61,148 nt of DNA from an uncultured Actinomycetes bacterium (lineage in GTDB: Bacteria > Actinomycetota > Actinomycetes > Nanopelagicales > Nanopelagicaceae), in assembly GCA_903843225.1 (NCBI GenBank), contig CAIMOX010000004.1, positions 1 to 61,148 on the forward strand, read 5' to 3'. Position numbers and translations under genes: made by a program. Positions 4,734 to 60,325 of the stretch are shown one piece after another; positions within the stretch are counted from its first letter, which is position 1; every line of letters begins with the position of its first letter. The notes below the pieces were generated by a model, which did no database searches, was not told where the DNA came from, and was given only the letters and a program-made list of their open reading frames with translations.

Positions 4734-5774
4734 ATGAGAATCACACATCTCCAAGATCTTCTCCTTGCGCTCGCGACTTTTGTGATCGTTGGAGCGCTCA
4801 CGCCAGTAATGCGACGGTTCGCAATTCACCACGAGGTGATGGATACGCCATCGACTGCCCATAAGACTCATAAAGAACCAGTGCCGTATCTCGGTGGAGT
4901 CGCAATCATTATCGGAATCCTGGCGGTTTCATTTGGCGCACTCATCTTTAAGCACTCACCAAGTAAAAATTTCTGGCTCGCAGCATCTGTACTCGGACCA
5001 GCGCTCGTGTTAGGTCTGATCGGGTTGTGGGATGACATTAAGAATCTTCGTCCACTTCCACGATTTATCGCGCAAACAATTGCTGGAATCTTTACATCAT
5101 TGATCTTGATCTCATCGAGCACGGTCGGAACCCCAACCGGATCCAAGATCGTCGATACCGTTATCACCACACTTTGGATTGTTGGAATCTGTAACTCAAT
5201 TAACTTCTTTGATAATTTAGATGGTGGCGCCGCGGGGACAATCGCGATATCTGCCATCGCACTTACAAAACTTGGGATTGATGGCCATCAATATCTAGTT
5301 GGCGGATTAGCTGCGGTCACTGCAGGAGCCACTATTGGATTCCTATTATGGAATAAGAGTCCAGCCCGGATATATATGGGCGATGCCGGAGCGCTCTTCT
5401 TAGGAATTTTGATTGCATCGCTGACAATTCGATTGCACCCAAATGCACAGACACAATGGACCTCTTTTGCTACTCCAGTACTGCTTATTGCGGTTCCGAT
5501 CCTGGATACCAGCGTGGCAGTACTCTCACGCTTACGTCGCCGGATCTCGCCCTTTCAAGGTGGTCGCGACCATTTGAGTCATCGATTAGTGCGACTTGGA
5601 TTAGAGCGTCCTACCGCTGCAATCGCCTTATGGTCGTTATCTGGAATCTTTGCGCTAGCTGCTATCGCGATCCCGATGACATCTAAGGGGATGGAACAGG
5701 TCGTGACGGGGCTTGCGGCGACTGCATGGATCGGACTCTTCGCCTTCTTCTATCAGACCGCAGACTCCGAGTAA
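4734..5774 (+). CDS. Undecaprenyl-phosphate sugar-phosphate transferase (WecA/MraY family, GT4)
   Basis: A 346-residue polytopic membrane protein with about ten hydrophobic segments. It carries the polyprenyl-phosphate N-acetylhexosamine-1-phosphate transferase signatures: HKEPVPYLGG in the first cytoplasmic loop, GLWDDIKNLRP, the NFFDNLDGGAAG catalytic block and MGDAGALFLG, followed by the basic C-terminal GRDHLSHRLVRLG block typical of the WecA/TagO branch rather than MraY. It is expected to transfer a UDP-sugar phosphate to undecaprenyl phosphate and so start assembly of a wall polymer or surface glycan. The polysaccharide genes at 49-60 kb could depend on such an initiator, but that link is inference. 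Confidence 0.88.
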   Translation: MRITHLQDLLLALATFVIVGALTPVMRRFAIHHEVMDTPSTAHKTHKEPVPYLGGVAIIIGILAVSFGALIFKHSPSKNFWLAASVLGPALVLGLIGLWDDIKNLRPLPRFIAQTIAGIFTSLILISSSTVGTPTGSKIVDTVITTLWIVGICNSINFFDNLDGGAAGTIAISAIALTKLGIDGHQYLVGGLAAVTAGATIGFLLWNKSPARIYMGDAGALFLGILIASLTIRLHPNAQTQWTSFATPVLLIAVPILDTSVAVLSRLRRRISPFQGGRDHLSHRLVRLGLERPTAAIALWSLSGIFALAAIAIPMTSKGMEQVVTGLAATAWIGLFAFFYQTADSE

Positions 5775-5784
5775 CCTTACGACC

Positions 5785-6396
5785 ATGAGCAAAGGCAACC
5801 AGGTTGAGTTCACAATCTGGCTTCGCGAGCGCCAAGGTGCGCTCTTGAAGGCTGCTCGAGCGATCGCATTTGATCCACAGAATGCTGAAGATATCCTCCA
5901 AGAAGCTCTCGCTGATGTCTATCAGCGGTGGAACAAGGTTAAGGATCACGAAAATCCTGAGGCTTATGTCATCCGTGTGATGGTTTCAAAGCACACTGAT
6001 CTTCGTCGCAAGTGGTGGCGTAGACAGCAGGAGAATGAAACTGCATGGGATTTTGCCGAAGGCGTTCGCAATATTGCTGATCAATCAGATGAAGTGATTC
6101 AGCGATTACTAGTGCAGTCTGCGCTCAAGACTCTGACAGCAGCCCAGCGTGCAGTTCTTGTCTTGATCTATGAACATGGGCTCGTTCTGCGCGAAGTCGC
6201 TGACATCTTAGAGCTGCCAATGGGCACAGTCGCATCTCACTTAGCTCGCGGTAAGGCTGCGGTAGCGGCGCATCTGGAATTGGTTCCGGAATTTGAAAAG
6301 TCTGTGAAGAAATCGCTCCCGCCATTGTTAAAGAGTGATGTGTCGATTGACTCTGACTTTACTGGCGTTGTACTTGGAGAGGTGGTCGAAGAATGA
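5785..6396 (+). CDS. SigE-family ECF RNA polymerase sigma factor
   Basis: A 203-residue sigma-70 family protein. The start is the ATG at 5785 just after the preceding gene; a longer frame begins inside that gene. Region 2 shows FDPQNAEDILQEALADVYQRW with the conserved helix that binds the polymerase clamp; region 4 is LKTLTAAQRAVLVLIYEHGL then VADILELPMGTVASHLARGK, a helix-turn-helix for -35 recognition. This layout fits the actinobacterial SigE-like ECF group. It overlaps the following membrane-protein gene by four bases, the usual sigma / anti-sigma arrangement. The seven secreted paralogs downstream are natural candidate targets. Confidence 0.88.
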   Translation: MSKGNQVEFTIWLRERQGALLKAARAIAFDPQNAEDILQEALADVYQRWNKVKDHENPEAYVIRVMVSKHTDLRRKWWRRQQENETAWDFAEGVRNIADQSDEVIQRLLVQSALKTLTAAQRAVLVLIYEHGLVLREVADILELPMGTVASHLARGKAAVAAHLELVPEFEKSVKKSLPPLLKSDVSIDSDFTGVVLGEVVEE

Positions 6397-7064
6397 CAAT
6401 CGATATTGATGCCTTAATTCACCGCGAGCTCGAGCTCATGGGCAATGGCGCATTCTCTGGGAAAGACCTTGCTACCACTGTCTTTGCGAAGGTTCGCCGT
6501 CGCCGGATCCGCAAAGCAACTATCGCGGTTCTCTCAGTGTTGCTCTTAACCGTAACTTCAATTGGAATTTATGCACTTGGGAAGGCAGTTTCTGATCATA
6601 ATTTTGCAGCAAATAACACGGGCAACAATGGTGCAGTTGGTTCTACAGATTCAAAAACTCTTCAACCAAACCTTATTGACCACTTAATCTCTGATTACCC
6701 AGTTACCTGGGAGCAAAGTGTTGGTGATTTGAGCGCAATTTCAAAGGCAGGCGGCATTGGAGACACACTTGGTGGGCTTACTGCAGTTGGTTTGAAGGTC
6801 ACCTGGCAGAGATGTGCAGCAGGTGCTTGCCCAACTTCATGGATTATTAATTTGCAAAATCGCACTGGAGATCTTGTGACAGCCAACCCTGCACTGATGC
6901 TCTTTGTAAATCACGAACCATTGGTAAGTTCTTCGCGACCAGTCACAGTTACAGCTGGAGGCTCATCACTACTCGTTTACACTTTCCCAGAACTTACTCA
7001 AGGGCTTACAGTTGCCTCTAATTCAACATGGCAATGGAACTGGTTCTTAACACCAGCCCATTAA
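6393..7064 (+). CDS. Single-pass membrane protein, probable anti-sigma factor or sigma partner
   Basis: A 223-residue protein whose ATG overlaps the sigma factor stop. About 45 N-terminal residues are cytoplasmic and end in a positive cluster (KVRRRRIRK); a membrane helix covers about residues 48-66; the remaining 155 residues are outside. The outer domain is rich in Ser, Thr and Asn and contains a Cys pair (WQRCAAGACPTSW). The size of the cytoplasmic part and coupling to the ECF gene fit an anti-sigma factor, but no zinc-binding HxxxCxxC motif is seen. It may therefore be a non-ZAS anti-sigma or a sensing partner. Confidence 0.6.
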   Translation: MTIDIDALIHRELELMGNGAFSGKDLATTVFAKVRRRRIRKATIAVLSVLLLTVTSIGIYALGKAVSDHNFAANNTGNNGAVGSTDSKTLQPNLIDHLISDYPVTWEQSVGDLSAISKAGGIGDTLGGLTAVGLKVTWQRCAAGACPTSWIINLQNRTGDLVTANPALMLFVNHEPLVSSSRPVTVTAGGSSLLVYTFPELTQGLTVASNSTWQWNWFLTPAH

Positions 7065-7082: not shown

Positions 7083-8339
7083 GTGATTCGTTCTTCTCTG
7101 AAAAGTTTCTTCACAGTTGTAACAGCGCTCATCACATTGACTGCGCTAGTAACTGGTGCAACCCCTGCGCGCGCGGCAATCACTCTGCCAACGACATCTT
7201 TCCAACCATGTTCTTCTGGGGTCACTAACTATTGCATTGAAAGTGTCAGCATTACCAAGAGTGGCCAAAAACCTGTTGTGCTTATCTGGACTCCTGCCGG
7301 GACAGCTGGACCATCTGCCGGAAACACAACAGGTGTAGTTTCAGGAAAGTCATCTCTTCCTGGACGATGGACTGCTCCTGGCGCATTCGATACAAATAAC
7401 TACGATGGTTTGTATATCGATGCCAAGGCTGCTAACGCCTTTGTTCCATGGGTCTATATCGACACCCAGCCAACGCTTTCTAGTGGCAGCGCTACCAATC
7501 TCGCAGCGACAGCCACAAACCCTAACTATCCCGTCAATCTCGATCCTGAGAGCGCGATCGATATCAAGATACATACCGGGGATATCAAAGCAGGAGTGAC
7601 CTTTGGCGTCGGCACTGATGCGACATTGGATCTCAGCAGTGGCGCTGGGTATTCAACAGCGGAAATTTCAGGCTATCCAGTAAGTGTTCCACTCGCGAAG
7701 TCAACAAAGGATTGCACCGGTGATACCGGAGTCGCCACCGCGCTTGTTACTCAGTTTCAATCTGTGATCGTTCCGTCAAATGACCCATTTGGATTTAGCG
7801 TCGATGGCGCTAGTGGGAAGATGTATGTTGGTTCAAATGGAATCTGTAAATTATCTACTCCGACCTGGAACGCAGATACGAAGTCATTTAAGTATTCAGC
7901 ATCGGCACCAAAGCTTGCTCCAGATGGAACAACGATCAATAAAGGTTTCTATCATGCAGTTATTTCCTTCGCTGATGCGACAGCTCTTTGGGGTCTGAAG
8001 AATCCAGCAGATGCCGCTTCGGCACTTGTTGTTTCCATCACAACTTCAGCTGGTGGCTCTGTCGCCGCCACGAAATCTGTCTCAGCTCGAAATAATTTAA
8101 TCATTATCGATGTCTCAGGATTTAGCTTCCCTGATCCACTCTTAGATATCACTCTCAATCCCGATTACAACATGAACACGACTACCACCACGAAGCCACT
8201 CGTGACCGGCACACCGAAGCCGACCCCGACTCCGACCATTGCTCCAAAAAGGATCACAGTCACCTGCGTTAAAGGTGTCATCACCAAGAAGATCACTGCG
8301 GTGAACGCAACCTGTCCATCTGGTTATCGAAAGAAATAA
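7083..8339 (+). CDS. Secreted protein, first of seven tandem paralogs (short type A)
   Basis: Start chosen at the GTG at 7083 because AAAGGG lies 8 bases upstream; another GTG at 7074 is in frame. The 418-residue product has a signal peptide ending ATPARA-AI. The mature N-terminus has a Cys pair (PCSSGVTNYCIESV) also found in the other six. The second half contains segments nearly identical to the next gene (PVNLDP, TGDIKAGVT, YVGSNG, WGLKNPADAA, IIIDVSGFSF). A Thr/Pro linker (GTPKPTPTPT) is followed by the shared C-terminal module TC-x15-CPSGYRKK. No enzymatic motif is recognised. It is probably exported and held at the cell surface. It follows the sigma/anti-sigma pair by 18 bases and may be in the same operon. 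Confidence 0.8.
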   Translation: MIRSSLKSFFTVVTALITLTALVTGATPARAAITLPTTSFQPCSSGVTNYCIESVSITKSGQKPVVLIWTPAGTAGPSAGNTTGVVSGKSSLPGRWTAPGAFDTNNYDGLYIDAKAANAFVPWVYIDTQPTLSSGSATNLAATATNPNYPVNLDPESAIDIKIHTGDIKAGVTFGVGTDATLDLSSGAGYSTAEISGYPVSVPLAKSTKDCTGDTGVATALVTQFQSVIVPSNDPFGFSVDGASGKMYVGSNGICKLSTPTWNADTKSFKYSASAPKLAPDGTTINKGFYHAVISFADATALWGLKNPADAASALVVSITTSAGGSVAATKSVSARNNLIIIDVSGFSFPDPLLDITLNPDYNMNTTTTTKPLVTGTPKPTPTPTIAPKRITVTCVKGVITKKITAVNATCPSGYRKK

Positions 8340-8479
8340 TTACGCTCGAGCATGGCAAATATGACCATTCTTGTTGGATGTAGGGCGGCCGTATACGCAT
8401 AAATTTGGCTCTAAATCGCGGTTGGGTAATTAGGTGGCCACTCGAGGCGGCCAATTCTCATCCAATGAAGGAGTACCAC

Positions 8480-10477
8480 GTGCGTAAGTCGTTGATAGCT
8501 CGAGGCTCAGTCCTCGCATTACTCGCCGGATTGTTCGTAGGGGCAGCTCTGCCTTCACACGCGGCAACCCTTCGCGTCCCTAAGACCGCCTTTGCAGCCT
8601 GTGCCCAGATCAACGGAACCTATTGCGTTGAATCTGTTGTGATCACTACTGCACAGGGTAAGACCGTACCTTTGATGTGGGTGCCAAATGGCAATCCCGT
8701 TCCACAGCAGCCAGCGAATGCAGGAATTTCATTCGCGCCAATGGCCGAACTCAATAAGGCAAACGTTGTTATCGGCAATGGCTGGTGGGCTGATCAGTAC
8801 CAACGTGATGCGCTGACTTCTGGCACCGCAGTCTTCATGGATGTCTCCAACTTAATCGGCACTCCAAACTTCCCAGTCCAGGGCGCTAAGTACGATTCAG
8901 CAACGAAGACCTTCGATACAACTCGTCCGATGGATAGTTGGTCCTACCCACAAGATTGTTGGGATAACTCAAATGGTTCCGTAACGCCTAACGTTGCTTG
9001 GACTGATTGCTATAAGAGCGCACTTGTCATTATCAAGGATGGCGAAGTAAAGATGGAGTTCGATTACAATAAAGCTGATCGAGCTGCTTCAGAGGTAAAG
9101 CGTTACCAATCTGAAACCTTTATCGATCTCAAGGATCTTGCAAATACTCAGATGCAGCCTGATTGGAATGCTAAGTACGATCCAGCTACTAAGACATTCT
9201 CAAAGACAGTTCCACTTGTAACACCGATCTGGGTAACAAATAACTCACTCGTCAATGGTTGGGATGTTGCAGGCACAGTCTCTGCACTTCCATCTGCCGC
9301 AACACCTGCCGCAACACCTGCAGCGACTCCGGCTGCCAGCCCATCTGCTTCACCATCCGCGTCAGCGTCAGCAACACCGGCAACTCCGGCTGCGGGATCA
9401 ACACCGGCAGCAGCTGGCGACGGTGCTGTTCCGGGTGTAGCAGCAGCACCACTTGCTCCTGATGCTTCAACAAATGTGGCTCCACCGGTTGAAGCTGGTC
9501 GCGCACTTGGTGGTCACTGGACAACTCCGTTGTGGAACACACTCGGACTTGGCCAGCTCGGCTATGACGGACTCTTTGTTGATGCAAAGGCGGCAAACGA
9601 GTTCACAAACAACCTCTTCGTCGACGTGCTTCCAACTCTTACCGATTCCAACAACAAGGTTAATCTTGCTTCACAGCCTGGCTCAAAGGGTTACGCAGTG
9701 AACCTCGATCCAGATATCACCATCAAGGTCACAGTACGTACTGGTGATATGAAGACAGGCGTCACCGTTGCAGTTGGTGTCGATACAACAGTCCAAACTC
9801 AAAACCATGGTGATTACACCTTGGTCTCGATTGAGGGATCTGCGGTAACCGTTCCACTTGCAAAGAACCCAGCGACAGATTGTACTGGCGAGGCAGGAGT
9901 TGCAAAGGCAAATGTCCGCCAGTTCCAGACTTTGATTATTCCTCAGAATGATCAGACCGGATTCGGTATCGACGGAACAACTGGAAACCTCTATGTTGGT
10001 TCTAACGGTGTTTGCTCACTCTCAACACCGACATGGGATGCAACCAATAAGGCATTTACATGGGAAGCATCTGCTCCACACTTCGCATCTGATGGTGTGA
10101 CAGTGAACAAGGGCTTCTATAAGGCAGTCATCCCATTCCAGGATGCTGCACTGCTCTGGGGGCTTACAAATCCAGCTGATGCTGCAACAGCTCTTAAGGT
10201 TTCGTTGACTACGGAAGCTGGCGGTACATCTGCGGCGATCGCGGTCGTCTCAGCGAAGAATGGCAAGATCATTATCGATGTCTCTGGATTCGGATTCTCG
10301 CGTCCAAAGCTTTCGATCACGATCAAGAAGGGTTACAAGCCTTCGAAGGCGAAAATCACTGCCTTGCCTGCACCAAAGGTCACAGTCACCTGTGCTCTAG
10401 GTGCATCAACAAAGAAGATCACTGGCACTAACCCAGTATGTCCAAAGGGCTTCAAGCAGATCGGTCCCAAGGTTTGA
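8480..10477 (+). CDS. Secreted protein, second paralog (long type A with internal Ala/Ser/Pro linker)
   Basis: Start GTG at 8480 preceded by GAAGGAG at 6 bases; an in-frame ATG at 8465 and a longer frame to 8405 are less likely. The 665-residue protein has a signal peptide ending LPSHAA. The conserved Cys pair (CAQINGTYCVESV) follows. A region of about 200 residues absent from the first paralog comes next, ending in a low-complexity Ala/Ser/Thr/Pro linker encoded at about 9,285-9,480. The second half aligns closely with the preceding gene (GHWTTPLW, YDGLFVDAKAANEF, WGLTNPADAATAL, IIIDVSGFGF). The C-terminal module is TC-x15-CPKGFK with a short extra tail. It appears to have its own transcription unit, closed by the hairpin after it. 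Confidence 0.8.
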   Translation: MRKSLIARGSVLALLAGLFVGAALPSHAATLRVPKTAFAACAQINGTYCVESVVITTAQGKTVPLMWVPNGNPVPQQPANAGISFAPMAELNKANVVIGNGWWADQYQRDALTSGTAVFMDVSNLIGTPNFPVQGAKYDSATKTFDTTRPMDSWSYPQDCWDNSNGSVTPNVAWTDCYKSALVIIKDGEVKMEFDYNKADRAASEVKRYQSETFIDLKDLANTQMQPDWNAKYDPATKTFSKTVPLVTPIWVTNNSLVNGWDVAGTVSALPSAATPAATPAATPAASPSASPSASASATPATPAAGSTPAAAGDGAVPGVAAAPLAPDASTNVAPPVEAGRALGGHWTTPLWNTLGLGQLGYDGLFVDAKAANEFTNNLFVDVLPTLTDSNNKVNLASQPGSKGYAVNLDPDITIKVTVRTGDMKTGVTVAVGVDTTVQTQNHGDYTLVSIEGSAVTVPLAKNPATDCTGEAGVAKANVRQFQTLIIPQNDQTGFGIDGTTGNLYVGSNGVCSLSTPTWDATNKAFTWEASAPHFASDGVTVNKGFYKAVIPFQDAALLWGLTNPADAATALKVSLTTEAGGTSAAIAVVSAKNGKIIIDVSGFGFSRPKLSITIKKGYKPSKAKITALPAPKVTVTCALGASTKKITGTNPVCPKGFKQIGPKV

Positions 10478-10517
10478 TCGAAGCTCTACACAGTAAGTAG
10501 CTAGTCGTTTAACAGAT

Positions 10518-10563
10518 CGAGGGAAATTTCCCTGGTGCTTCTGCGGCGCCAGGGAAATCCTCG
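10518..10563 (+). terminator. Long hairpin after the second paralog, probable terminator
   Basis: Bases 10,518-10,538 and 10,546-10,563 form an almost perfect stem (CGAGG...TTTCCCTGGTGC against GCGCCAGGGAAAT...CCTCG) with a 7-base loop and a two-base bulge. It separates the type A paralogs from the five-gene type B operon. There is no run of T after the stem, so it could act as an mRNA stability or processing element instead. Confidence 0.6.
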
Positions 10564-10628
10564 TATCTCACCTCGAAAAGTCCATCTCTCCAGCAGGATA
10601 CAAGCAGAAGCAAAGGACACTTTCACCG

Positions 10629-12293
10629 ATGCCCATTCGTAAATTGATCGCCGTTCTCATCGGATCAGTCTTCGTGCTGACTGGAGTTGTCGCTGCACAC
10701 GCAACCGCATTGCCCGATAAAAATTTGCCCAATCAATCATTATCAATTTCGGACAATATCCTTGTATCAACAATGCCCGATGCGATCTTTGGATCTACAA
10801 ATCCCAGTGATGAGCACACCTACAAACTCTGCGATACTTTTGATGATGCAACTTGCTCCACGGCGACTACCATCGCTTTCTTTAATCACCTAGTGCCTTG
10901 CACTTCAATAGTTTCAGTCGACTGCATTAAGTCTGTATGGGCAACCGACTCCTCCGGAAAAAAAATAGAGGGTCAATTTAGTAAATACGTTGATGCCGAG
11001 AATCCATCTCATTACGATGCGATTCCATCACTTGGCATTCCAGAGGGCAAAGGCCTCGGCGCTATTTGGAGCATTCCCGGTGTGATGAGTTCAGCCGGTA
11101 CATCCACGTACCTCTTGGATGTCGCGCTAAACGGCCGGATTGACGGAACGGGTCCTCTATCCACCAGGAAAGTTAATTGGGGTGGTGGTATGACAGCTAC
11201 CCTCACACCAATTGTTGAGAAGGCTGATCCTCAAAATGACATTCATGCCATTGCGGTCTCGGCCACAGCTGATCATGGATTAGGTACGACTCAATTTGGC
11301 CAGGCTTTGGATGGCACATGTGCGGGCCACGCACCAAAAATCTGCTACGCAAAGAGTGATTTCCCAGCCGGATACCGATTTGGCTTCACAATGTCTTTGA
11401 CTCACGGATTTACCGGTTGGTTCCATGGACGTTTCTATGCGCCAAATATCTCAATAACTAATGGCGCGCAGCAGGTAATTGATGTTGAGGCTGACCCGGT
11501 AATTGTTCCAACACTGGAAGTTTCAGCGCCAACCGCATCCCTTCCCTCAGCGCTTGCAAACTATCTCTTTAGTGGGCGGACCTTTGGCATGGGGGGAGGG
11601 AAAGTCATTGGCGACCCATCAAATCCAGATTCCTTCGACCTGGCAACCCTTTTCTTGCCTATTGCAAAAGACACCGCATCAACCTCAAATTCGTTTTGGT
11701 CGTTCAAAACACTGCAAGGGAATCAATCTATGGGTGATGTCGGGCGGTGTACTGCGAGTGATGGTGGCGTCTCAGGTGTTGTGACTACGAATGCGCTTGT
11801 TTATAGTGCCGGACCTCCCTCGTTTAACTCCGGAACCGGTTCGCTTGATTACAAGTTGCTCTCACCTCATTATCAAGCAGACGGCAAAGTGGCCATTGGA
11901 AGCTATGACCTTTTGCTTCGATCAACCGTTGCTCGATGTATCTACAACTTTTCAACCGCCCCAGTGAAGGCTTCAATTGAAATCGTAAGCAATGATGGTA
12001 ATGCTCAGATTGCAAGCACAACCTTGGTGGAATCTAATGGCTGGCTAAAAATGTCTGCCAAAGGCTTTAGTTATTCATCTCCAACAATCAAGGTAAAGCT
12101 CACTCAAGATGCTCCAGCACCAACACCGTCTCCAAGCGCTTCGGTCACTCCTACTCCAGCCGCTACTGCTACTCCGGCACCAGCTGCTAGCCCGGTGATA
12201 AAGAAGACCACCATCACCTGCATTAAAGGCAAGATGACTAAGACCGTTACCGCCGTTAAGCCAACCTGTCCGATGGGATACAAAAGGAAATAA
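10629..12293 (+). CDS. Secreted protein, third paralog (type B), first gene of a five-gene coupled operon
   Basis: A 554-residue exported protein starting MPIRKLIAVLIGSVFVLTG, signal peptide ending HATA. Shared elements in order: Cys pair (PCTSIVSVDCIKSV, about residues 90-105), GWFHGRFYAPN, GVVTTNALVYSAGPPSF, LDYKLLSPHYQADG, VARCIYNFS, NGWLKMSAKGFSYSS, an Ala/Pro/Thr linker, and the terminal module TC-x15-CPMGYKRK. The HGR motif and the ARCxYxFS motif define type B. Function unknown. It follows the hairpin at 10.5 kb; its stop codon touches the next start, so all five type B genes are probably made from one mRNA. Confidence 0.82.
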   Translation: MPIRKLIAVLIGSVFVLTGVVAAHATALPDKNLPNQSLSISDNILVSTMPDAIFGSTNPSDEHTYKLCDTFDDATCSTATTIAFFNHLVPCTSIVSVDCIKSVWATDSSGKKIEGQFSKYVDAENPSHYDAIPSLGIPEGKGLGAIWSIPGVMSSAGTSTYLLDVALNGRIDGTGPLSTRKVNWGGGMTATLTPIVEKADPQNDIHAIAVSATADHGLGTTQFGQALDGTCAGHAPKICYAKSDFPAGYRFGFTMSLTHGFTGWFHGRFYAPNISITNGAQQVIDVEADPVIVPTLEVSAPTASLPSALANYLFSGRTFGMGGGKVIGDPSNPDSFDLATLFLPIAKDTASTSNSFWSFKTLQGNQSMGDVGRCTASDGGVSGVVTTNALVYSAGPPSFNSGTGSLDYKLLSPHYQADGKVAIGSYDLLLRSTVARCIYNFSTAPVKASIEIVSNDGNAQIASTTLVESNGWLKMSAKGFSYSSPTIKVKLTQDAPAPTPSPSASVTPTPAATATPAPAASPVIKKTTITCIKGKMTKTVTAVKPTCPMGYKRK

Positions 12294-14096
12294 ATGATGA
12301 ATAGGTCACGGGTAGCAATCCTTTCAGTTCTCGTATTGTCCGCCATTGGCGCGCTCTCACCTGCCGTCGCATATCAAGGCGCTAGTTGGATTCCAATCTC
12401 CCCGCAGCAGGATGATCCAAATTTTCACTCAGTGACATTCCAAGATCAGTTACCCTTGAAATTTAATTTTCCAGTCTTACAAGGTTCCGATAGCAGTGGA
12501 AATATGTGGATTTGTAAGTCAACTCAGGATCCAACCTGCTCGAATATGCCTTTAGTCTATAACTCCGTATTAAAGGTTTGCCAAAATACGACAGATACCG
12601 ACTGCATCGTGAGTGTAAGTAGTCTCGATCAGAATGGGATACCCACCCAAGCGAAGTTTTCAAGGTACACAGTGACAAACCATATTAACGCCTACCCTGC
12701 AGACCCAAAGATGAATATTCCCGCAGGTGACACTCCTAGCGTCTGGAATATTCCTAGCGCACCGCATGCCTCGGGGGCCGATTATGTGGCACTGGCGGGG
12801 TTGAGCGGGTGGGTCGATTCAAATGGGAAACCTCAACAAGGTAATCCTGGTCAATTCGGTACGTATCTTGAAGTATCACTCTTCCCAGTTGTTCTCAAGG
12901 ACTTTGGCAAGGGGCCCAATAGCTTGGATGCTGGGTGGGGTAACGTCCCAACCGGGTTTTATTACGACTCCTGCTCAGAATTCCAGCAAACCTCAACTCG
13001 TAAAAATATCGATTGCAGCCACGTAAACGGTGGTACCTGCCTGTTTCCAACTAATGAACAAGGAATGTGTTACGTCGCCGAAGATTTCCCTCCAACACAA
13101 CGTTTCAATGTTCAACTTAGACTTGCAAAGGAACCCACCGGCTGGCTCCACGGGCGCATGGTTGATCCAAACGTTTCGATTAACACGAGTTCTAGTGGAC
13201 TTTTTGAGTTATCGGTTACAGCCGGATCTACTTCAGTGCCGATGGTCTATCAAGGGGCAGACTGGCCCACTCTCCCGAGCAATTTGAAGAAGTTTTGGGT
13301 TGATTGCATGACAGATGGCGACATATGTGGAGGGGCCTTAGGAGGAGCTGGGGCAAAGCCAAATTATTGGGAAACCGCGAGTACGTTAGCCGGTAACGAG
13401 TTTGTGAATCTGATCGGACAACCTTACTCATTTGGCCCAATCGCGTTAGAAGGTATGGCAGCGATAGCTCCGCTAGTAGGCGATAAATCAAATGCGATGA
13501 AATCTTCTTGGAGCTTCAGAACTCTTGCTTCCAATGAAATGAGTGGTGCTAACGATTGCTTTACGAAATCTGCCGGGATCAAAGGAATAGTTACAACCAA
13601 CTCGACAACTTACTCTGCTGGACCACCGGCTTTCAAAAACGGCTCACTGAATTATCAGGTCGCATCGCCGCATTTCAACCCTGATGGAACTACTCCATTC
13701 AAAGGAACCTATAACCTCGTCATGAGATCAGATGTGGCGCGTTGCCTTTATGGATTCTCTAAGGCACCGATTAATGCAAGCATCTCAGTAATCTCTGCTG
13801 AGGGTAGTAGTGATGTTGCAACCACTGTTGCTAACGAGAGTAATGGCTGGCTTTACCTATCAGCCAACAACTTCCAGTTCTCATCGCCAACGATTCAAGT
13901 GAAGCTATCTCAGGACGCCGCAGCACCAACTCCATCGGCTACACCAGTCGTGACTTCGACTCAGAGGCCTTCTGCGACAGCGACTCCTGCCCCCAAGATG
14001 CCAGTTAAGTCAACGATCACCTGTATCAAGGGTAAGGCGAGTAAGAATGTCACCGCCATTAAGCCAATCTGCCCGATGGGATATAAGAAGAAATGA
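12294..14096 (+). CDS. Secreted protein, fourth paralog (type B)
   Basis: A 600-residue exported protein. ATG at 12294 follows the previous TAA without any gap; the ATG at 12297 is an alternative. The signal peptide ends near PAVAYQ. It has the Cys pair (VCQNTTDTDCIVSV), WNIPSAPHASG, GWLHGRMVDPNVSI, GIVTTNSTTYSAGPP, LNYQVASPHFNPDG, VARCLYGFSKAPI, NGWLYLSANNFQFSSP and the C-terminal module TC-x15-CPMGYKKK. It is most similar to the last gene of the array (17,436), suggesting those two arose from a recent duplication. It carries extra Cys residues in the middle (about residues 235-260) that could form more disulfides. Confidence 0.82.
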   Translation: MMNRSRVAILSVLVLSAIGALSPAVAYQGASWIPISPQQDDPNFHSVTFQDQLPLKFNFPVLQGSDSSGNMWICKSTQDPTCSNMPLVYNSVLKVCQNTTDTDCIVSVSSLDQNGIPTQAKFSRYTVTNHINAYPADPKMNIPAGDTPSVWNIPSAPHASGADYVALAGLSGWVDSNGKPQQGNPGQFGTYLEVSLFPVVLKDFGKGPNSLDAGWGNVPTGFYYDSCSEFQQTSTRKNIDCSHVNGGTCLFPTNEQGMCYVAEDFPPTQRFNVQLRLAKEPTGWLHGRMVDPNVSINTSSSGLFELSVTAGSTSVPMVYQGADWPTLPSNLKKFWVDCMTDGDICGGALGGAGAKPNYWETASTLAGNEFVNLIGQPYSFGPIALEGMAAIAPLVGDKSNAMKSSWSFRTLASNEMSGANDCFTKSAGIKGIVTTNSTTYSAGPPAFKNGSLNYQVASPHFNPDGTTPFKGTYNLVMRSDVARCLYGFSKAPINASISVISAEGSSDVATTVANESNGWLYLSANNFQFSSPTIQVKLSQDAAAPTPSATPVVTSTQRPSATATPAPKMPVKSTITCIKGKASKNVTAIKPICPMGYKKK

Positions 14097-15676
14097 TTCA
14101 AAAAACACGTAAAGCCCTCGCGGTCGGTTGGGGAACAGCTTTGCTATGTACATTGGTGGCTTCCAATGCTGCGCGGGCTACGTCTGACGCCTTTGATCCA
14201 CTTAACATTAAAACAGGGGGACCTGGGAATGTCGTCGAATATGTGGTCGAAGGTGGAACGGCTGAAAAGAGTCCATACATTGGAATTCAACCAACTAATG
14301 CGAATGGAAATCAGAGTTGGAAATGGTGCACTGGTTTAGACGATCCTATTTGTGACCCAAAAAATAATCCCGTTGGTATGAAGGCAACCTCGATCCTTCC
14401 TCCATGTACCAGCTCAACTCAAGAGAATTGCCTAGACTCTGTCGAAATTGGCACGCCTAACAACTTATCAAAAGCAGATTTATCGCGAGTTATAAGCGGT
14501 CTAACTTTCCCAGCAAACCCTTCCTATAACTACCTCGGTAGCTCAAACATTTCTCTCTGGAATGTCCCGGGCGTTGCTTCAAGTGGGGGCCAGTCGACGT
14601 ATGCAGTGATGCCTCGGATTCAGTCTTATTTCAGAGATGGAAGATTCTATCTTGGCGAATTATTTGTGAACGTGATTCCCTATCGGGAGGCGCTTGACCC
14701 TAAATATAAAGCACAAAAAATCGATACAACAGGGCCAAGCACGCCAATGTATCCCTACACCTACAGTCGGTATCAGCAAATCTGTGTGTATGAAGAAGAT
14801 GGTAAATGCGGCATCACTCAAGATTTTCCATCGGATACACGAATCAAAATTAAAATAAGAGTTACAAAAGAACTTGGGGGTTGGTTCCAAGGTCGACTTC
14901 GTAATCCTGTGATGGACGTTCAAAATTTCTCTATCAATAACAATGTAGTGACGGTTGAGGCGTCTGCAGTAACCGTCCCGAGAATGGCCCTTCTCACAAA
15001 TCAAGCGAATTTTTCAGATTTTGAAAAAACTGAATATGCAAAGATGGGATATTGGCCCACAGCAGATGATGGAAACGGTTCAGGAGCTCAAGCAGGTATC
15101 CCTGCAGATGTATTCCCATTTCTCGAGTATTACCGTCTAAAGGTGAAGGATACGGCGCTTGCTACCAATACCTTCTGGAATTTCAGCACGACTTCCCCTG
15201 GTAATGGAAGCTCATGCTTGCAGGATAGTTCGAAGTTGCTTGGCATAGTTTCAACTAATTCGATGGCTTATGATGGAACCGCGCCTTCCTTTAGTAATGG
15301 ATCATTGGATTACCACGTTTCTGGACTGCACTACATGCCCGATGGAACTACTCCCGTTCAAGGGACATATAACTTGGTGATGCGTTCTGATGTTGCGCGC
15401 TGTCTCTATGGATTTAGCAGTGCACCGATAAAGGCCACGATCTCTATTGCGGGTGCAAGCGACGGGCCAGTAGCAACGACTCTCAGTGGTGAAACCAACG
15501 GCTGGTTGAGCCTTGCCGCCGCTGGATTCTCATTTAGTCAAAAGAATATTCAGGTGAAGTTGACTCAGGATGCGCCAACCCCAAAGAAAACCACCATCAC
15601 CTGCATTAAAGGTAAGACAACTAAGACCGTTACAGCAGTTAAACCCACCTGTCCGACGGGATACAAGAAGAAATGA
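14093..15676 (+). CDS. Secreted protein, fifth paralog (type B, short linker)
   Basis: A 527-residue exported protein; ATG at 14093 overlaps the previous stop (ATGA). The signal peptide ends near AARA. Conserved elements: PPCTSSTQENCLDSV, WNVPGVASSGGQ, GWFQGRLRNP (His of the HGR motif replaced by Gln), GIVSTNSMAYDG, LDYHVSGLHYMPDG, VARCLYGFSSAPI, NGWLSLAAAGFSFS and module TC-x15-CPTGYKKK. The Pro/Thr linker before the module is almost absent, so a long spacer is not essential. Function unknown. Confidence 0.82.
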   Translation: MIQKTRKALAVGWGTALLCTLVASNAARATSDAFDPLNIKTGGPGNVVEYVVEGGTAEKSPYIGIQPTNANGNQSWKWCTGLDDPICDPKNNPVGMKATSILPPCTSSTQENCLDSVEIGTPNNLSKADLSRVISGLTFPANPSYNYLGSSNISLWNVPGVASSGGQSTYAVMPRIQSYFRDGRFYLGELFVNVIPYREALDPKYKAQKIDTTGPSTPMYPYTYSRYQQICVYEEDGKCGITQDFPSDTRIKIKIRVTKELGGWFQGRLRNPVMDVQNFSINNNVVTVEASAVTVPRMALLTNQANFSDFEKTEYAKMGYWPTADDGNGSGAQAGIPADVFPFLEYYRLKVKDTALATNTFWNFSTTSPGNGSSCLQDSSKLLGIVSTNSMAYDGTAPSFSNGSLDYHVSGLHYMPDGTTPVQGTYNLVMRSDVARCLYGFSSAPIKATISIAGASDGPVATTLSGETNGWLSLAAAGFSFSQKNIQVKLTQDAPTPKKTTITCIKGKTTKTVTAVKPTCPTGYKKK

Positions 15677-17439
15677 GAAATTCACAATACAAAGCGATTA
15701 CATTTCTATCAGTTTTATTCACGGCATTATTTACCAGCGTCGGGATCGCTGCCACTGATGAAGCTTGGGTTCAAACCCCTCCTCCGACAGCGGAGGCATC
15801 GTGGGGAATTTTGGCTCAAGGAATTTCTCAGACTTACACAAGTTTCGCTACTCCAAGCTTGATGAGTTTTACTTCGGATGGATATCAATTTGGTGTCTCT
15901 AAGGTAATTGCAGTGAAGAAGTGTGACACGATAGGTGGAGCTGATTGCCCCCTATCAGAATTCCAGAAGTATCACTCCCCGATGAGTTTTTGCTCAGCTT
16001 CAAATTCAACTGACTGCGTCCAAGAGGTGACTGCCAAAAGTGCTAGTGGCGCTTCTCTGCAGGTAAATTATCTCGGACCATACGGCGGAGACCCTTCGTG
16101 GTCCTTCAAGGGAAATTCCTCTATGAATCTACCGACCTCTGGACAATCCTTTTTAGTCGATATCCCGAGCGCTCCTCATGCTGGCGGCAGTAAATATTTA
16201 ATTTCGTCTGTTCTCGACGGCGTGCGATACCCATCTGATTCTCAATTCACCACAAACGGATTGCAAGCAACTATCTGGCCAGTTAGCATTAAAACGGGAA
16301 CTTACCAGCCGTACGCCGAATCTCTTTCACCGACGAATTACTCTGCGTTAGGAGTTAACTCGGGTGCTGGGGGTGGTTGTGAAGGGGTTCAGTCGGAGAT
16401 CGGATCATGTGCGATCGCATCTGCGTTACCACTAGATGTTAGTTTCGGCATCAAATTGAAACTTAGGACAAAAGTAGATGGCTGGATTCACGGCCGTATC
16501 TCTCATGTGGATGCAACTGTCTCGCGAGCTGGTGATGGTGATCAGCTAGTAACAATTTCTGGGTTCCCGGTAAAAGTTCCTACAATCTTCGGTTGGGTCT
16601 CAAAAGAGAAAGCACCTGCTGCACTCACAAATTTCTATAAAGCGATGGATCCGTTCTATCTGAACATGGGAAATGGCTATGGAAGGTGTCTAGATCCGAG
16701 CGAAACTAGTGGACCGTGTAATCCAAGATACTGGGAATCGATCCTTCGAAGTCCAGGGACCTCACCGGATGGCATTCAGGAATTGGCACTGTGGTTACCA
16801 ATCGTTAATGACAAAGCTGTAGCAGCACCTTCTGCGTGGTCAGTCCGGACGGTATCTGGGAATCTCAATAATTGTGGAACGGAAACAAAAAATCTAGTTG
16901 GTTTTGTGAGTACGAATGCAACCGTTTACCTCCCTGGGCCTCCAACTTTTAATTCAGCGGATGGAACGTTAGATTACAAAGTCTTGTCAACGCACTACCT
17001 ACCTGATAATTCAGTCTCACAAGGTAGCTACGATTTGGTTATAGATAGTTCGGTTGCACGCTGCATCTACGGCTTCTCGAATGCACCAATAAAGGCGACC
17101 GTTTCTGTCATTTCTAGCGATGGGTCGTCTCAGGCTGTTACAACCACTGTGACTGAAAATAATGGCTTCCTGCGTATGTCTGCCAATGGCTTTACGTACT
17201 CTAATCCCACGATCAAAGTTAAATTCACGCAGGATGCGCCAGCGCCTGTCCTAACTCCTATTGCCACCCCAACTCCAGAGCCAACTGCTTCAGCAGCGCC
17301 AACGACCCAACCTGTCGTACCCGCTCCTAAGCCAACTGTTGTTGCAAAGAAGACGACCATCACCTGCGTTAAGGGTAAGACCACTAAAACGGTTGCCGCA
17401 GTCAAACCAACCTGCCCAACGGGATATAAAAAGAAATGA
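15673..17439 (+). CDS. Secreted protein, sixth paralog (type B)
   Basis: A 588-residue exported protein; ATG at 15673 overlaps the previous stop (ATGA). The signal peptide ends near VGIAAT. Conserved elements: FCSASNSTDCVQEV, VDIPSAPHAGG, GWIHGRISHV, GFVSTNATVYLPGPPTF, LDYKVLSTHYLPD, VARCIYGFSNAPI, NGFLRMSANGFTYSNP. A linker of about 50 residues rich in Ala, Pro and Thr precedes the module TC-x15-CPTGYKKK. The linker sequence is close to that of the next gene, which suggests gene conversion or recent duplication of the 3' ends. Confidence 0.82.
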   Translation: MRNSQYKAITFLSVLFTALFTSVGIAATDEAWVQTPPPTAEASWGILAQGISQTYTSFATPSLMSFTSDGYQFGVSKVIAVKKCDTIGGADCPLSEFQKYHSPMSFCSASNSTDCVQEVTAKSASGASLQVNYLGPYGGDPSWSFKGNSSMNLPTSGQSFLVDIPSAPHAGGSKYLISSVLDGVRYPSDSQFTTNGLQATIWPVSIKTGTYQPYAESLSPTNYSALGVNSGAGGGCEGVQSEIGSCAIASALPLDVSFGIKLKLRTKVDGWIHGRISHVDATVSRAGDGDQLVTISGFPVKVPTIFGWVSKEKAPAALTNFYKAMDPFYLNMGNGYGRCLDPSETSGPCNPRYWESILRSPGTSPDGIQELALWLPIVNDKAVAAPSAWSVRTVSGNLNNCGTETKNLVGFVSTNATVYLPGPPTFNSADGTLDYKVLSTHYLPDNSVSQGSYDLVIDSSVARCIYGFSNAPIKATVSVISSDGSSQAVTTTVTENNGFLRMSANGFTYSNPTIKVKFTQDAPAPVLTPIATPTPEPTASAAPTTQPVVPAPKPTVVAKKTTITCVKGKTTKTVAAVKPTCPTGYKKK

Positions 17440-19241
17440 AGAAGTCTTTTAAATTCGCGATTGTGATGGTTGCCGTGGCCCTGATATTTGGCACAAATAC
17501 TTCCAGTGCTGAAGTCGTTGGGGATCAGCACTGGATAACTCCCATCAATTCCTCTCCTACTTTTCACTCAATAACTTATCAAGATGAGCTTCCAGCACTG
17601 GCTACATACCCAAAGCTCACTGCCGAGCAGTACACCGCTGACCCAAACATTTGGAGTCGCTTTTTATGTGCATCAACTACTGACTCACATTGTCAAAATG
17701 TTAGCCAATTCTCGTATCAATCGATTTTCCCGGTTTGCCAACTAGCAGCCGATGTAGATTGTGTCGAAGGCGTGACTGCTATTTCTATTGCAGGGCAGTC
17801 TCAAGAAGGAAAGTTTATCTCCTACACCGTTCCAGACCATGTGAATAAGTTCCCACCAGATTTATCGCTGGGTATTCCGAAAACTGAGACTCCGAGTCTC
17901 TGGGATCTTCCCTCCGCACCCCATCAATATGGAACTCAATATGCAGTTGTCGTGGCTCAAACAGGGTCCGTCAGAATGGGCGCAAATGGGAACAGTACTC
18001 AATCTCAGTTATATGCCTATCTTCTCCCGGTTTCAAAAATCGATGTTGGTTATTTGAGAAATGAATCCCCACTCAAAGTTGGATATGACTCGTTGTGGGA
18101 AACACCAAAGGATTCTTCAGGGCGCACAAATACTCAGGGATACGGAACTTCTACCGATGCATGCACAATGTCTCTGACTGATCCGACTAAGTGCCTGACT
18201 TCACGGGCCTTCCCAGATGGATTTAAGTACTCTGTGAAGATTCGCCTTTCGAAAGAACCCGTTGCGTGGCTCCATGGCAGAATGGTTGATCCAAGCATTT
18301 CAATTTCTTCATTAAATGGTGCAGTGGTTATGACCGTGACTGCATCCCCCACAAAAGTCCCGGTTCTCTCACTTGGTGTGGACTCTTCCAAACTTACTTC
18401 GGATCAAGAAGGAATTTGGGTATCTTGCTTTACGGATGGGACGGTATGTACTGGTGGAGGAACTCACGATGGTCGTCCCATTGATTTCAATAGAACTTTT
18501 ACGGCTGATTACTCAAAGACCTTGAATCTCTGGGCGACTATGAATGGCTTCGGTGCAACTGCCATCAAAGGAGTTCAACTTCTCACTCCGCTTGTTGGAG
18601 ACAAATCACAAGCACTTCCCAGTGCGTGGAGTTTTCATACACTCCCCACTAATCAACTAGCAAAGGCTGATAGCTGTTTTGCAAACGGGCCCGGTTTAAA
18701 AGGAATAGTGACCACAAATTCAACGACCTATTCAGAAGGCCCTCCTTCCTTTAAGGACGGAAGTCTTCAATACACAGTCGCTTCACCTCACTTTAACCCG
18801 GATGGTTCTGTCTTTAAAGGAACATATAACCTTGTTATGAGGTCAGATGTAGCACGTTGCCTGTATAAATTTACGAGCGCGCCAATTAAAGCCTCTATTT
18901 CAGTTGTTTCCTCTGACGGTTCTGCAGACGTTGCAACGACTGTGTCAAATGAAACTGGTGGATGGCTTTACTTGTCTGCCAATAATTTCACATTCTCAAC
19001 TCCCACAGTCCAGGTAAAACTCTCTCAAGATGCACCTGCTCCAGTAGCAACCCCGACTCCTGTTGCCACCTCAACACCAGAGCCAACTGCCTCAGCAGCA
19101 CCAACAACTGCGCCTATCGCTCCGGCCCCAAAGCCAACGGTTGCTGCCAAGAAGTCCACCATCACCTGCATCAAGGGCAAGACATCCAAAGTAGTGACCG
19201 CCATAAAACCAACCTGCCCTGCAGGCTATAAAAAGAAGTAG
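17436..19241 (+). CDS. Secreted protein, seventh paralog (type B), end of the operon
   Basis: A 601-residue exported protein; ATG at 17436 overlaps the previous stop (ATGA). The signal peptide ends near TSSAEV. Conserved elements: VCQLAADVDCVEGV, WDLPSAPHQYG, AWLHGRMVDPSISI, GIVTTNSTTYSEGPPSF, LQYTVASPHFNPDG, VARCLYKFTSAPI, GGWLYLSANNFTFSTP, the Ala/Pro/Thr linker and module TC-x15-CPAGYKKK. It shares most with the fourth paralog. The operon ends here and meets a convergent minus-strand gene whose stop begins at 19,242, with no clear terminator between. Confidence 0.82.
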   Translation: MKKSFKFAIVMVAVALIFGTNTSSAEVVGDQHWITPINSSPTFHSITYQDELPALATYPKLTAEQYTADPNIWSRFLCASTTDSHCQNVSQFSYQSIFPVCQLAADVDCVEGVTAISIAGQSQEGKFISYTVPDHVNKFPPDLSLGIPKTETPSLWDLPSAPHQYGTQYAVVVAQTGSVRMGANGNSTQSQLYAYLLPVSKIDVGYLRNESPLKVGYDSLWETPKDSSGRTNTQGYGTSTDACTMSLTDPTKCLTSRAFPDGFKYSVKIRLSKEPVAWLHGRMVDPSISISSLNGAVVMTVTASPTKVPVLSLGVDSSKLTSDQEGIWVSCFTDGTVCTGGGTHDGRPIDFNRTFTADYSKTLNLWATMNGFGATAIKGVQLLTPLVGDKSQALPSAWSFHTLPTNQLAKADSCFANGPGLKGIVTTNSTTYSEGPPSFKDGSLQYTVASPHFNPDGSVFKGTYNLVMRSDVARCLYKFTSAPIKASISVVSSDGSADVATTVSNETGGWLYLSANNFTFSTPTVQVKLSQDAPAPVATPTPVATSTPEPTASAAPTTAPIAPAPKPTVAAKKSTITCIKGKTSKVVTAIKPTCPAGYKKK

Positions 19242-19777: not shown

Positions 19778-19865
19778 CGGCGAAGCATGGGCAAGGAGCG
19801 GAAAGGTACATGAAGAGAGATGCTGTCACTGTGAATAAGTGGGGGCTGTGCATTAAAAACTAGAG

Positions 19866-19939
19866 TGGCTCGGGACAGGATCGAACTGTCGACCTCACGA
19901 TCTTCAATCGCGCGCTCGTACCAACTGAGCTACCGAGCC
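19866..19939 (-). tRNA. tRNA-Phe(GAA), copy 1
   Basis: The reverse strand folds into a 74-base cloverleaf: acceptor GGCTCGG/CCGAGCC, D-loop AGTTGGTAC, anticodon loop TTGAAGA, T-arm GACAG-TTCGATC-CTGTC, discriminator A. CCA is not encoded. The base after the anticodon (position 37) is G instead of the A seen in copy 2 at 60,101. Confidence 0.95.
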
Positions 19940-19963
19940 AGTATTAGTGGCGTTGTATAACCG

Positions 19964-20037
19964 CGACCCAGACGGGACTTGAACCCGCGACCTCCGCCGT
20001 GACAGGGCGGCGCGCTAACCAACTGCGCTACTGGGCC
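19964..20037 (-). tRNA. tRNA-Asp(GTC), copy 1
   Basis: A 74-base cloverleaf on the reverse strand: acceptor GGCCCAG/CTGGGTC, anticodon loop CTGTCAC, T-arm GCGGG-TTCAAGT-CCCGT, discriminator G as expected for tRNA-Asp. It lies 24 bases from tRNA-Phe and is probably cotranscribed with tRNA-Glu. Confidence 0.95.
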
Positions 20038-20169
20038 TAACCGAGTGCCCGGCTCCTGCTATTACGCATTCAACCGAACATCTCATTCGATACAGGATCG
20101 CTCCCGTACCAAAGCTAGGTCGTATCTTTTTCAGATACCTATTTAATTATCAACCCTGTGAGGGATTGG

Positions 20170-20242
20170 TGCCCCCAACGGGGTTCGAACCCGTGTTACC
20201 GCCGTGAAAGGGCGATGTCCTAGGCCTCTAGACGATGGGGAC
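20170..20242 (-). tRNA. tRNA-Glu(TTC)
   Basis: A 73-base cloverleaf on the reverse strand: acceptor GTCCCCA/TGGGGGC, anticodon loop CTTTCAC, T-arm ACGGG-TTCGAAC-CCCGT. It is the first gene of the Glu-Asp-Phe transcript; the 130 bases between Glu and Asp show no other gene. Confidence 0.95.
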
Positions 20243-29162: not shown

Positions 29163-29812
29163 TTGATGTGACTATTTTCGCTCGGGATCGATCCAGATTC
29201 TTGAAAATATAATCGAGATAACTCGACACGCTTGTTAATGTGTCTGTCATCTATCCTGAAGTGATGAATCAAACGCGAAATTGCCTGCTCTACCGATTTC
29301 TCGCGCACTCCTCTTACTTTTGCGATCTCGGTATTAGAGAAACCGAGAGCAACGAGTCGAAGTGTTTCAAGTTGAGCGTCTGGAATCGATATGCCCTGTT
29401 TTTTTATTGGCGCCGATTCACTATGTAGATTTTTTGATAATGAAAGTAAAATTTCTTGATGTAATTTCTCTACCTCATGAATATCGCGCTTCACTAGGTA
29501 GCGCGATCCTCCAGGAAGCCTGGCAATTTTCGGATCTAAATATCTCGGATCATTGAATCCAGTCAGTAAGACGATCCCGATCCGTGGAAGGATTCTTCTA
29601 AGCCCTAAAGCTAGGTCGACTCCATTAGGTCCAAATCCCAAATCAAGATCTAAGACTGCCACGTCGGGCTTGGAGACCCCGGCAACCTTCATAGCGGATG
29701 CGACCGATCCAGTGTCATGCACAATTTCAAGGCCTTGTAGTTGGAGTGCTGCCTTGATCGTAGTACGAGTGAAGGCATCATCCTCGACGAGCATGACCCG
29801 CAATCTTTGCAT
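29159..29812 (-). CDS. LuxR/NarL-family response regulator
   Basis: A 217-residue regulator: receiver domain (about 1-120) with acidic pair EDD at 10-12, phosphoacceptor block VAVLDLDLG (Asp55), LLTGF and the conserved Lys in YLVKRD; then a LuxR-type helix-turn-helix (about 140-195, DAQLETLRLVALGFSNTEIAKVRGV). It overlaps the kinase gene by four bases and is the first gene of the minus-strand operon. The recognition helix region (REKSVEQAISRLIHHF) is typical of the family. Candidate targets are its own operon and the divergent surface-protein genes at 30,028 and 30,841. Confidence 0.88.
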   Translation of the reverse strand: MQRLRVMLVEDDAFTRTTIKAALQLQGLEIVHDTGSVASAMKVAGVSKPDVAVLDLDLGFGPNGVDLALGLRRILPRIGIVLLTGFNDPRYLDPKIARLPGGSRYLVKRDIHEVEKLHQEILLSLSKNLHSESAPIKKQGISIPDAQLETLRLVALGFSNTEIAKVRGVREKSVEQAISRLIHHFRIDDRHINKRVELSRLYFQESGSIPSENSHIN

Positions 29813-59998: not shown

Positions 59999-60100
59999 TT
60001 TTCAGAGAAGTTTTATCAAGAAGGCAGCAGGGCGAAATAATTAGTCGCGAGTTATTCCAAAAATTCGAAATCGCTTTAGGAATTCAAGTCAGTTGTGAAG

Positions 60101-60174
60101 TGGCTTGGGCCGGGATCGAACCGGCGACCTAACGATTTTCAGTCGTTCGCTCGTACCAACTGAGCTATCAAGCC
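60101..60174 (-). tRNA. tRNA-Phe(GAA), copy 2
   Basis: A 74-base cloverleaf on the reverse strand: acceptor GGCTTGA/CCAAGCC (the last pair is A-C), anticodon loop CTGAAAA, T-arm GCCGG-TTCGATC-CCGGC. It keeps the usual A at position 37, unlike copy 1 at 19,866. Located inside the polysaccharide cassette. Confidence 0.94.
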
Positions 60175-60251
60175 AACAAAGATCTTGCTAGCAGTTGCCC
60201 ACCAGTACGTATGGCACACAAATAAATTTGCATACAACACCAAAACCTTTG

Positions 60252-60325
60252 CGACCCGGACGGGACTTGAACCCGCGACCTCCGCCGTGACAGGGCGGCG
60301 CGCTAACCAGCTGCGCTACCGGGCC
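60252..60325 (-). tRNA. tRNA-Asp(GTC), copy 2
   Basis: Nearly identical to copy 1 at 19,964, with acceptor GGCCCGG/CCGGGTC and one D-loop change; anticodon loop CTGTCAC. It is followed by tRNA-Phe copy 2 after 77 bases, the same order as in the first cluster, but without tRNA-Glu. Confidence 0.95.

Follow-up and report, generated by a model that had tools for sequence, protein, structure and literature searches.

What use a small-genome actinobacterium makes of seven consecutive genes for related secreted proteins is the question raised by the 61,148-nt stretch of DNA analysed here (the window). The window is contig C4 of an assembly of 1.35 Mb (54 contigs, 99.9% complete), a size in keeping with the small-genome cell supposed in the first-pass annotation.

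Anatomy of the array

The seven open reading frames, A1, A2 and B1–B5, lie head to tail on the forward strand (7083–19241; Table 1). Pairwise comparison confirmed that they are consecutive paralogues filling 12 kb, as had been proposed from a first reading, with 49% identity between A1 and A2 over 338 aa (E 4e-99), 32–45% between pairs of type B proteins (E down to 1e-170) and 22–34% between the C-terminal halves of type A and type B proteins (E 1e-7 to 1e-22). The proteins form two subfamilies, A1/A2 and B1–B5, whose common ground is the C-terminal half together with a terminal module; the division into two type A and five type B members is reflected in the motif W-[FIL]-[HQ]-G-R, which 5/5 type B proteins carry and neither type A protein does (0/2). 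B1–B5 are tightly coupled, with neighbouring genes abutting or overlapping by 4 nt (0 to −4 nt). A2 starts with a GTG codon at 8480 with GGAG upstream, while an alternative, longer TTG ORF from 8405 overlaps the promoter-like site. A1 is missing from some related arrays (L062, L063), and two extra family members occur elsewhere in the same genome (C52:2867-4222 and C17:22999-24636).

Table 1 Coordinates of the array genes and associated features in the window.
Feature	Position	Strand	Basis or remark
ECF (SigE-like) sigma factor gene, first of cassette	5785-6396	+	ORF 5713-6396; ATG 5785 likely
Anti-sigma-like single-pass membrane protein	6393-7064	+	4-nt overlap with sigma gene
A1, short type A secreted protein	7083-8339	+	missing from some related arrays
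Promoter-like site GCATAAAT-N14-CGGT	8397-8422	+	some 58 nt upstream of A2
A2, long type A secreted protein, predicted major product	8480-10477	+	codon adaptation
Stable hairpin, A2-B1 spacer, GGGAAATTTCCCTGGTGC...GGCGCCAGGGAAATCCTC	10518-10568	+	T-run absent after hairpin
B1 secreted protein	10629-12293	+	
B2 secreted protein	12294-14096	+	structure modelled, pLDDT 82.6
B3 secreted protein	14093-15676	+	
B4 secreted protein	15673-17439	+	
B5 secreted protein	17436-19241	+	

A signal-peptide-like N-terminus is present in 7/7 proteins, as the first-pass annotation had stated, and no other hydrophobic segment is strong enough for a further membrane span. The N-terminal cysteine pair (C-x6/8-C-[ILV]-x-[SEG]-V) and the terminal module were likewise recovered in 7/7. 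This module is a basic stretch of 30 residues with two cysteines (type B consensus KKxTITCxKGKxTKxVTAxKPxCPxGYKKK), and type B proteins carry ten invariant cysteines, equivalent to five candidate pairs. Homology of the C-terminal half held at the aligned positions, but the consensus strings printed for it are only approximate, with literal matches in 4/7 proteins for [AS]-x-H-[YF]-x2-D-G, 6/7 for [ALC]-x-[WY]-[GN]-[LF] and 1/7 for NGxLxxSAxxFxFS.

Fold, distribution and the terminal module

Searches of the family against Pfam, NCBIfam, PHROG, PADLOC and PDB sequences gave no match above cut-off, and no catalytic family was matched by sequence in the libraries searched, in line with the initial failure to recognise an enzyme or named family. 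No description of the protein family was found in the literature; most genome-reduced lake bacteria are reported to have conserved secreted proteomes (PMC11039613), and the passages of that paper bearing on this point do not name such an array. The array proteins represent a new protein family, predicted to be exported and disulfide-rich. AlphaFold models of B2 (pLDDT 82.6, pTM 0.80) and A1 (pLDDT 81.0, pTM 0.75) consist largely of beta structure, arranged as two major beta regions, a disordered proline-rich linker and a small beta hairpin at the end. Structure-based searches with these two models, as suggested beforehand, returned no confident whole-protein match (Foldseek against PDB and viral models), and the best VIA-align score (Z 5.3), also the best in the comparison with catalytic folds, is weak and is read as probably a common beta-sandwich only, most such matches being to beta-sandwich regions of large enzymes. 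Two candidate identities were judged to be chance matches. One is myelin P2 for type A (E 0.002); the other is the plant lectin fold Phloem protein 2 (PF14299), whose likeness consists of weak Pfam scores on the C-terminal half of B2 (20.2 bits, E 6e-4) and B3 (14.3 bits, E 0.04), both below the gathering score of 25, and for which structural support was not found.

The weak fold matches (Z 4–5) are mostly to beta-sandwich domains of GH98, dextranase, CBM3 and hyaluronate lyase, and this glycan-active company could suggest nutrient capture, with surface-held polysaccharide or glycoprotein binders as paralogues tuned to ligands and the ECF pair upstream (Table 1) as substrate sensor, by analogy with the sigma/anti-sigma-controlled glycan uptake of Bacteroidota. 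Related module-bearing proteins adjoin GH16 enzymes and sugar transporters, and the strong purifying selection on each B gene described below would suit fixed ligands. However, Z values of 4–5 are common among unrelated beta-sandwiches, no transporter or hydrolase travelling with the cassette was found in the loci read, and up to 19 copies with strain-level turnover are high for a substrate set, so that we consider nutrient capture unlikely. With fold similarities as low as Z about 5, any binding role is a guess.

Among the acI actinobacteria, which are tiny and rank among the most numerous cells in lakes, the family has a patchy distribution. The search of related genomes proposed in the first-pass annotation, in which copies were counted with a profile of the shared C-terminal domain, found the family to be almost confined to acI / 'Ca. 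Nanopelagicales', with 0 or 8–19 copies per well-assembled genome and a conserved cassette order. Closed genomes of the acI genus g27 contain 11–19 copies, the closed genome G083 contains 16 and other genomes 8–12, yet several closed genomes belonging to these genera have none. A class-wide search of about 350 genomes beyond the acI family produced two marginal matches only. The terminal module is nearly as narrowly distributed: in the class sample it occurs in 31 acI genomes and a single other genome, and the phylum sample adds two genomes from one other family. Named relatives of A1/A2 come from uncultured freshwater actinobacterium assemblies and from IMCC19121, an acI-A7 strain (PMC5301498); judged by these relatives, the genome of the window probably belongs to acI / 'Ca. 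Nanopelagicales'.

The module is not limited to the array family. In acI relatives it ends an FMN-binding protein as well as Ig-like (BIg21) proteins located beside GH16 enzymes, and close to the IMCC19121 array it ends a 2,256-aa TIG/InlB-repeat protein. In IMG/VR, 24 contigs encode a 562–568-aa signal-peptide protein that ends in the module, with a phage large terminase-like gene as its upstream neighbour in the 3 contigs checked. Among complete homologues of this phage protein, 14 carry the module whereas about 37 end immediately ahead of it, and this exact presence or absence, together with the other carriers, indicates that the module is a portable C-terminal unit, unlike known anchors in the libraries searched. 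The phages using it presumably have acI hosts. No relative of the core domain was found in viral contigs, and a prophage or mobile-element origin of the array was set aside on that ground.

No named S-layer or SLH domain was matched in Pfam/NCBIfam. Inspection by eye picked out no LPXTG, SLH or lipobox in the array proteins, which makes retention at the cell putative, and the proteins might be released rather than cell-held. Such secreted inhibitors, toxins or public goods, for which the module would be a folding or export aid instead of an anchor, would fit the lack of a recognised anchor, and signal peptides and disulfides alone also fit soluble proteins. Against this, the module also ends large repeat proteins and Ig-like proteins of surface type, the searches turned up neither a catalytic nor a toxin domain, and release would, on general reasoning, be costly for a dilute oligotroph. 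We regard release as improbable and retention at the surface as moderately supported, with the module as its putative means.

A sigma factor cassette and its promoter-like site

Several features at this locus were absent from the first-pass annotation, namely an ECF sigma factor gene with a putative anti-sigma partner just upstream, a promoter-like site, dispersed regulon members and a contrast between A2 and the B genes. The first gene of the cassette encodes a protein with Sigma-70 region 2 (Sigma70_r2, 9.5e-8) and region 4 (Sigma70_r4_2, 1e-10), both above cut-off, and without region 3, which is the general composition of an ECF sigma factor. It scores 62.5 against 42.9 for TIGR02937, while its best NCBIfam match, SigE-fam_strep TIGR02983, is below cut-off (115.1 bits; cut-off 141.55). 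A sigma orthologue lies upstream of the array in nearly all related loci. The product of the overlapping gene has a short basic cytoplasmic part, one transmembrane segment and an extracellular domain with a cysteine pair and a TWQWNW end; no recognised anti-sigma domain was matched above cut-off in Pfam/NCBIfam, and its position, topology and co-occurrence point to a putative anti-sigma. A profile of this protein (A9) detected it in 44/296 genomes of the order at E<1e-15, and it is present in 35 of the 36 genomes (of 296) that encode a full-length A2 (Fisher p 6.6e-36, a statistic that ignores relatedness). The lone A2 genome without it (G289, locus L064), whose A2 stands apart from the sigma pair, also lacks the site before A2. 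As the family exists without the anti-sigma-like gene in g21/g22, including the 16-copy genome G083, the regulator is not universal.

The cassette consists of the ECF sigma gene, the anti-sigma-like gene, the GCATAAAT-N14-CGGT site, A2, a hairpin and variable B genes, and this order is kept in six genera (g1, g18, g25, g27, g28 and g29; in g28 by position). It is located at purM/GT4 in the window and its relatives, at adk-map in others and elsewhere in IMCC19121, and these several chromosomal addresses indicate that the cassette moves as a unit.

The site was first noticed by eye in 11 loci and was then tested on newly fetched loci. All 20 of these carried it (14 exact copies); two of them repeat earlier loci (L113 = L062, L114 = L063), leaving 18/18 new loci with the site before A2, 13 exact and 5 with one mismatch. 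Neither GCATAA nor CGGT varies over the 36 sites collected, and their spacing is constant at 16 nt; this invariance is partly built into the search pattern, and their arrangement is as expected for putative −35 and −10 elements. Of the copies in five sigma-positive closed genomes, 8/9 exact ones and 11/44 with one mismatch stand directly ahead of a family gene (about 0.4% expected by chance for each), the ninth exact copy preceding another module-bearing secreted protein (L136). Twelve array-free genomes, closed or nearly so, contain one exact copy in total. Since the site is also found ahead of scattered family genes and of secreted proteins with the module but no core domain, it marks a regulon, with a common promoter-like element upstream of both adjacent and distant genes. 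We infer that it is the promoter recognised by the adjacent sigma. The usual ECF consensus is GGAAC/CGTC, which the site does not resemble. The site is absent upstream of the sigma gene or operon, which gives autoregulation of the sigma no support. In the window's own genome an exact copy also occurs at C28:17272 before a LuxR-like gene, which may be chance. Several g1 genomes have an antisense copy inside the anti-sigma-like gene, which was discounted as a functional site, since the codons it covers encode the conserved membrane span.

The arrangement recalls ECF sigma/membrane anti-sigma surface regulons, such as the SigE-type envelope response and Bacteroidota outer-membrane systems, in which an ECF gene likewise overlaps a gene for a single-pass membrane protein and adjacent exported targets share a promoter-like site at several loci. 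It differs from them in that the sigma falls below the TIGR02983 cut-off, the partner has no Pfam/NCBIfam anti-sigma domain, the site departs from the usual ECF consensus and the targets are a lineage-specific family. Regulation of the array as a unit is well supported and, in our judgement, very probable.

Within the cassette, A2 and the B genes differ. Over 15 loci the A2–B spacer has a mean folding z of −4.4, compared with −1.35 for spacers before A2; hairpin position is kept while sequences differ, mostly without a T-run, and three further loci have short A2–B spacers and no hairpin. A2 has the highest codon adaptation of the 24 window genes (0.594, against 0.39–0.41 for the B genes, measured on a small ribosomal reference set of 562 codons from one genome), and over 21 loci the median is 0.62 for A2, compared with 0.445 for B genes (p 8e-10) and 0.46 for others (p 7e-9). 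A2 has the top value of its own locus in most relatives, and codon usage is ribosomal-like in A2 and not in the B genes. This suggests abundance for A2 only, and we read A2 as the predicted major product, with weaker downstream B products.

Strain turnover and a putative surface coat

The B tree comprises roughly ten old lineages common to several species, with a different subset in each genome. Even the array locus with the closest flanks to those of the window (A14, 78–92%) has no B orthologue above 40% identity. Between the closed genomes G142 and G143 the sigma (100%), A2 (99%) and flanks (98%) are nearly identical, and with the membrane protein and one downstream B included the range is 97–100%. 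The B gene in slot 1, however, has 85% identity and a dS of 1.68, compared with 0.11–0.49 in the flanks, with dN/dS of 0.07; elsewhere one B is replaced by two unrelated Bs, and one extra B is present. The dN/dS values of 0.06–0.07, from the only genome pair tested, indicate strong purifying selection. B turnover in these sequences is best described as recombination that replaces genes while they stay under constraint, rather than as a speeding-up of residue change, and antigenic variation by fast residue change was rejected for this pair. Of the surface layer, adhesin set or antigenic/phage-facing diversity suggested in the first-pass annotation, the surface type and the diversity, through gene replacement, were retained, whereas whole-gene exchange with strong purifying selection means that rapid point-mutation antigenic variation is not seen. 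Consecutive exported paralogues with strain-variable content are also typical of mycoplasma vsp/vlp-type tandem surface-antigen arrays; the difference here is that whole genes are seen to be replaced while under purifying selection.

Simple duplication within a neutral family of secreted proteins, with no special regulation or role, could yield tandem paralogues of many lineages, but the conserved cassette, site, hairpin, co-occurrence and purifying selection, and the keeping of such bulk in a 1.35 Mb genome, make this very improbable. Phage predation has been proposed as the driver of acI microdiversity (PMC10202952), and the B proteins might be phage- or grazer-facing decoys that mask or mimic receptors and are swapped under predation, the phage copy of the module allowing a phage protein to be placed there too. 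The replacement of whole genes among close relatives, the 0-or-many distribution and the exact presence or absence of the module in the phage secreted-protein homologues beside the terminase-like gene would suit such decoys. The low dN/dS, with no fast residue change, the absence of a core-domain relative from viral contigs and the absence of a PADLOC match speak against them, and we hold a decoy role to be doubtful.

The reading we favour, and think somewhat more probable than not, is that the array is the structural part of a sigma-controlled, exchangeable surface-protein coat specific to acI, with A2 as its main component. A coat fits proteins that are exported, disulfide-rich and all-beta and whose C-terminal module is common to surface-type proteins. 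The membrane anti-sigma-like protein would keep the adjacent ECF sigma from acting as long as its extracellular domain detects no signal from the envelope or from outside, and the freed sigma would start transcription at the site before A2 and scattered family genes. A2 would then be made in bulk, the hairpin after it setting the B genes lower, and all products would undergo Sec export, disulfide bonding and surface retention by the linker and the basic two-cysteine module. A2 would form the common coat, while the B proteins, with an A2-like C-terminal beta-sandwich and different N-terminal regions, would offer replaceable outward-facing binding surfaces that strains swap by whole-gene recombination. 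This scheme draws on sequence for the family, signal peptides, cassette order, site, co-occurrence, hairpin, codon contrast and gene replacement; the anti-sigma role, the use of the site by the sigma, surface display, ligand and a phage-facing role are proposals built on these. In such a coat the array would probably cover or diversify the cell surface that faces viruses, grazers or food. More speculatively, acI may wear a lineage-specific coat of one major protein and a recombining minor library, with a private C-terminal module and one ECF sigma switch, as their main phage interface, the phages having captured the module to place their own protein there; this wider proposal is tentative.

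Bacterial S-layer and other major surface-protein systems likewise feature one exported, probably highly expressed protein of conserved structure comparable to A2, Ig-like beta-sandwiches and paralogues. The array differs from them in that no S-layer/SLH domain is matched and in its two-cysteine terminal module, for which the libraries searched offer no known anchor of the kind. The exported protein family, the portable C-terminal module and the candidate ECF promoter are new, none being present in the libraries searched. A regulated, strain-variable exported set present in 0 or many copies offers a definite candidate for the structures that phages and grazers encounter and for the differences between strains that are otherwise alike, and it is directly testable, since a single genus includes closed genomes with and without the array.

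Family proteins and carriers of the terminal module

The 30-residue two-cysteine terminal module of the array family also forms the C-terminus of a large repeat protein in the acI-A7 strain IMCC19121, encoded a few genes downstream of the array (Table). In phage contigs, a signal-peptide protein encoded directly 3' of a terminase-like gene ends with the acI module in some phages, and in others ends right before the module position. One type B protein lacks the module and has a different C-terminal end, and its genome also lacks the sigma pair (ECF sigma and anti-sigma-like genes). The seemingly split family gene of genome G141 adjoins an intact near-copy of its own N-terminus, which suggests recent duplication followed by decay.

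Features and their coordinates
Feature	Location	Strand	Remarks
2,256-aa protein	L139:1990-8760 (IMCC19121)		TIG and InlB-type repeats
562-aa signal-peptide protein	L154:1402-3090, L160, L167 and 21 further IMG/VR loci (L151-L175)		phage contigs
Type B protein	L064:7879-9777		no terminal module
Apparent family gene fragments	L142:6158-6886		G141
Promoter-like site	window 6549-6574	-	exact
Promoter-like site	L072 (G000 C28:17272-17297)	-	exact
217-aa protein	window 29159-29812	-	weak PDC-M60B and SduA matches
tRNA-Phe, tRNA-Asp	window 19865-20242		with tRNA-Glu
tRNA-Phe, tRNA-Asp	window 60100-60325		
tRNA-Lys(ttt)	window 32171; 47811		two copies

Further copies of the promoter-like site

The copy within the window lies antisense in the anti-sigma-like membrane protein gene, where it coincides with conserved membrane-span codons, and recurs in genomes G003, G012, G014 and G021. 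Elsewhere in the window's own genome, a copy stands immediately 5' of a LuxR-type regulator gene, which could be a regulon member, or the site there could be due to chance.

Other features of the window

The 217-aa protein matched the defence-library models weakly (E 4e-5), and its gene adjoins that of a 520-aa protein without matches. The duplicated tRNA genes possibly mark island borders. The G+C content of the window falls from ~50% to 38–40% approaching 54–60 kb.
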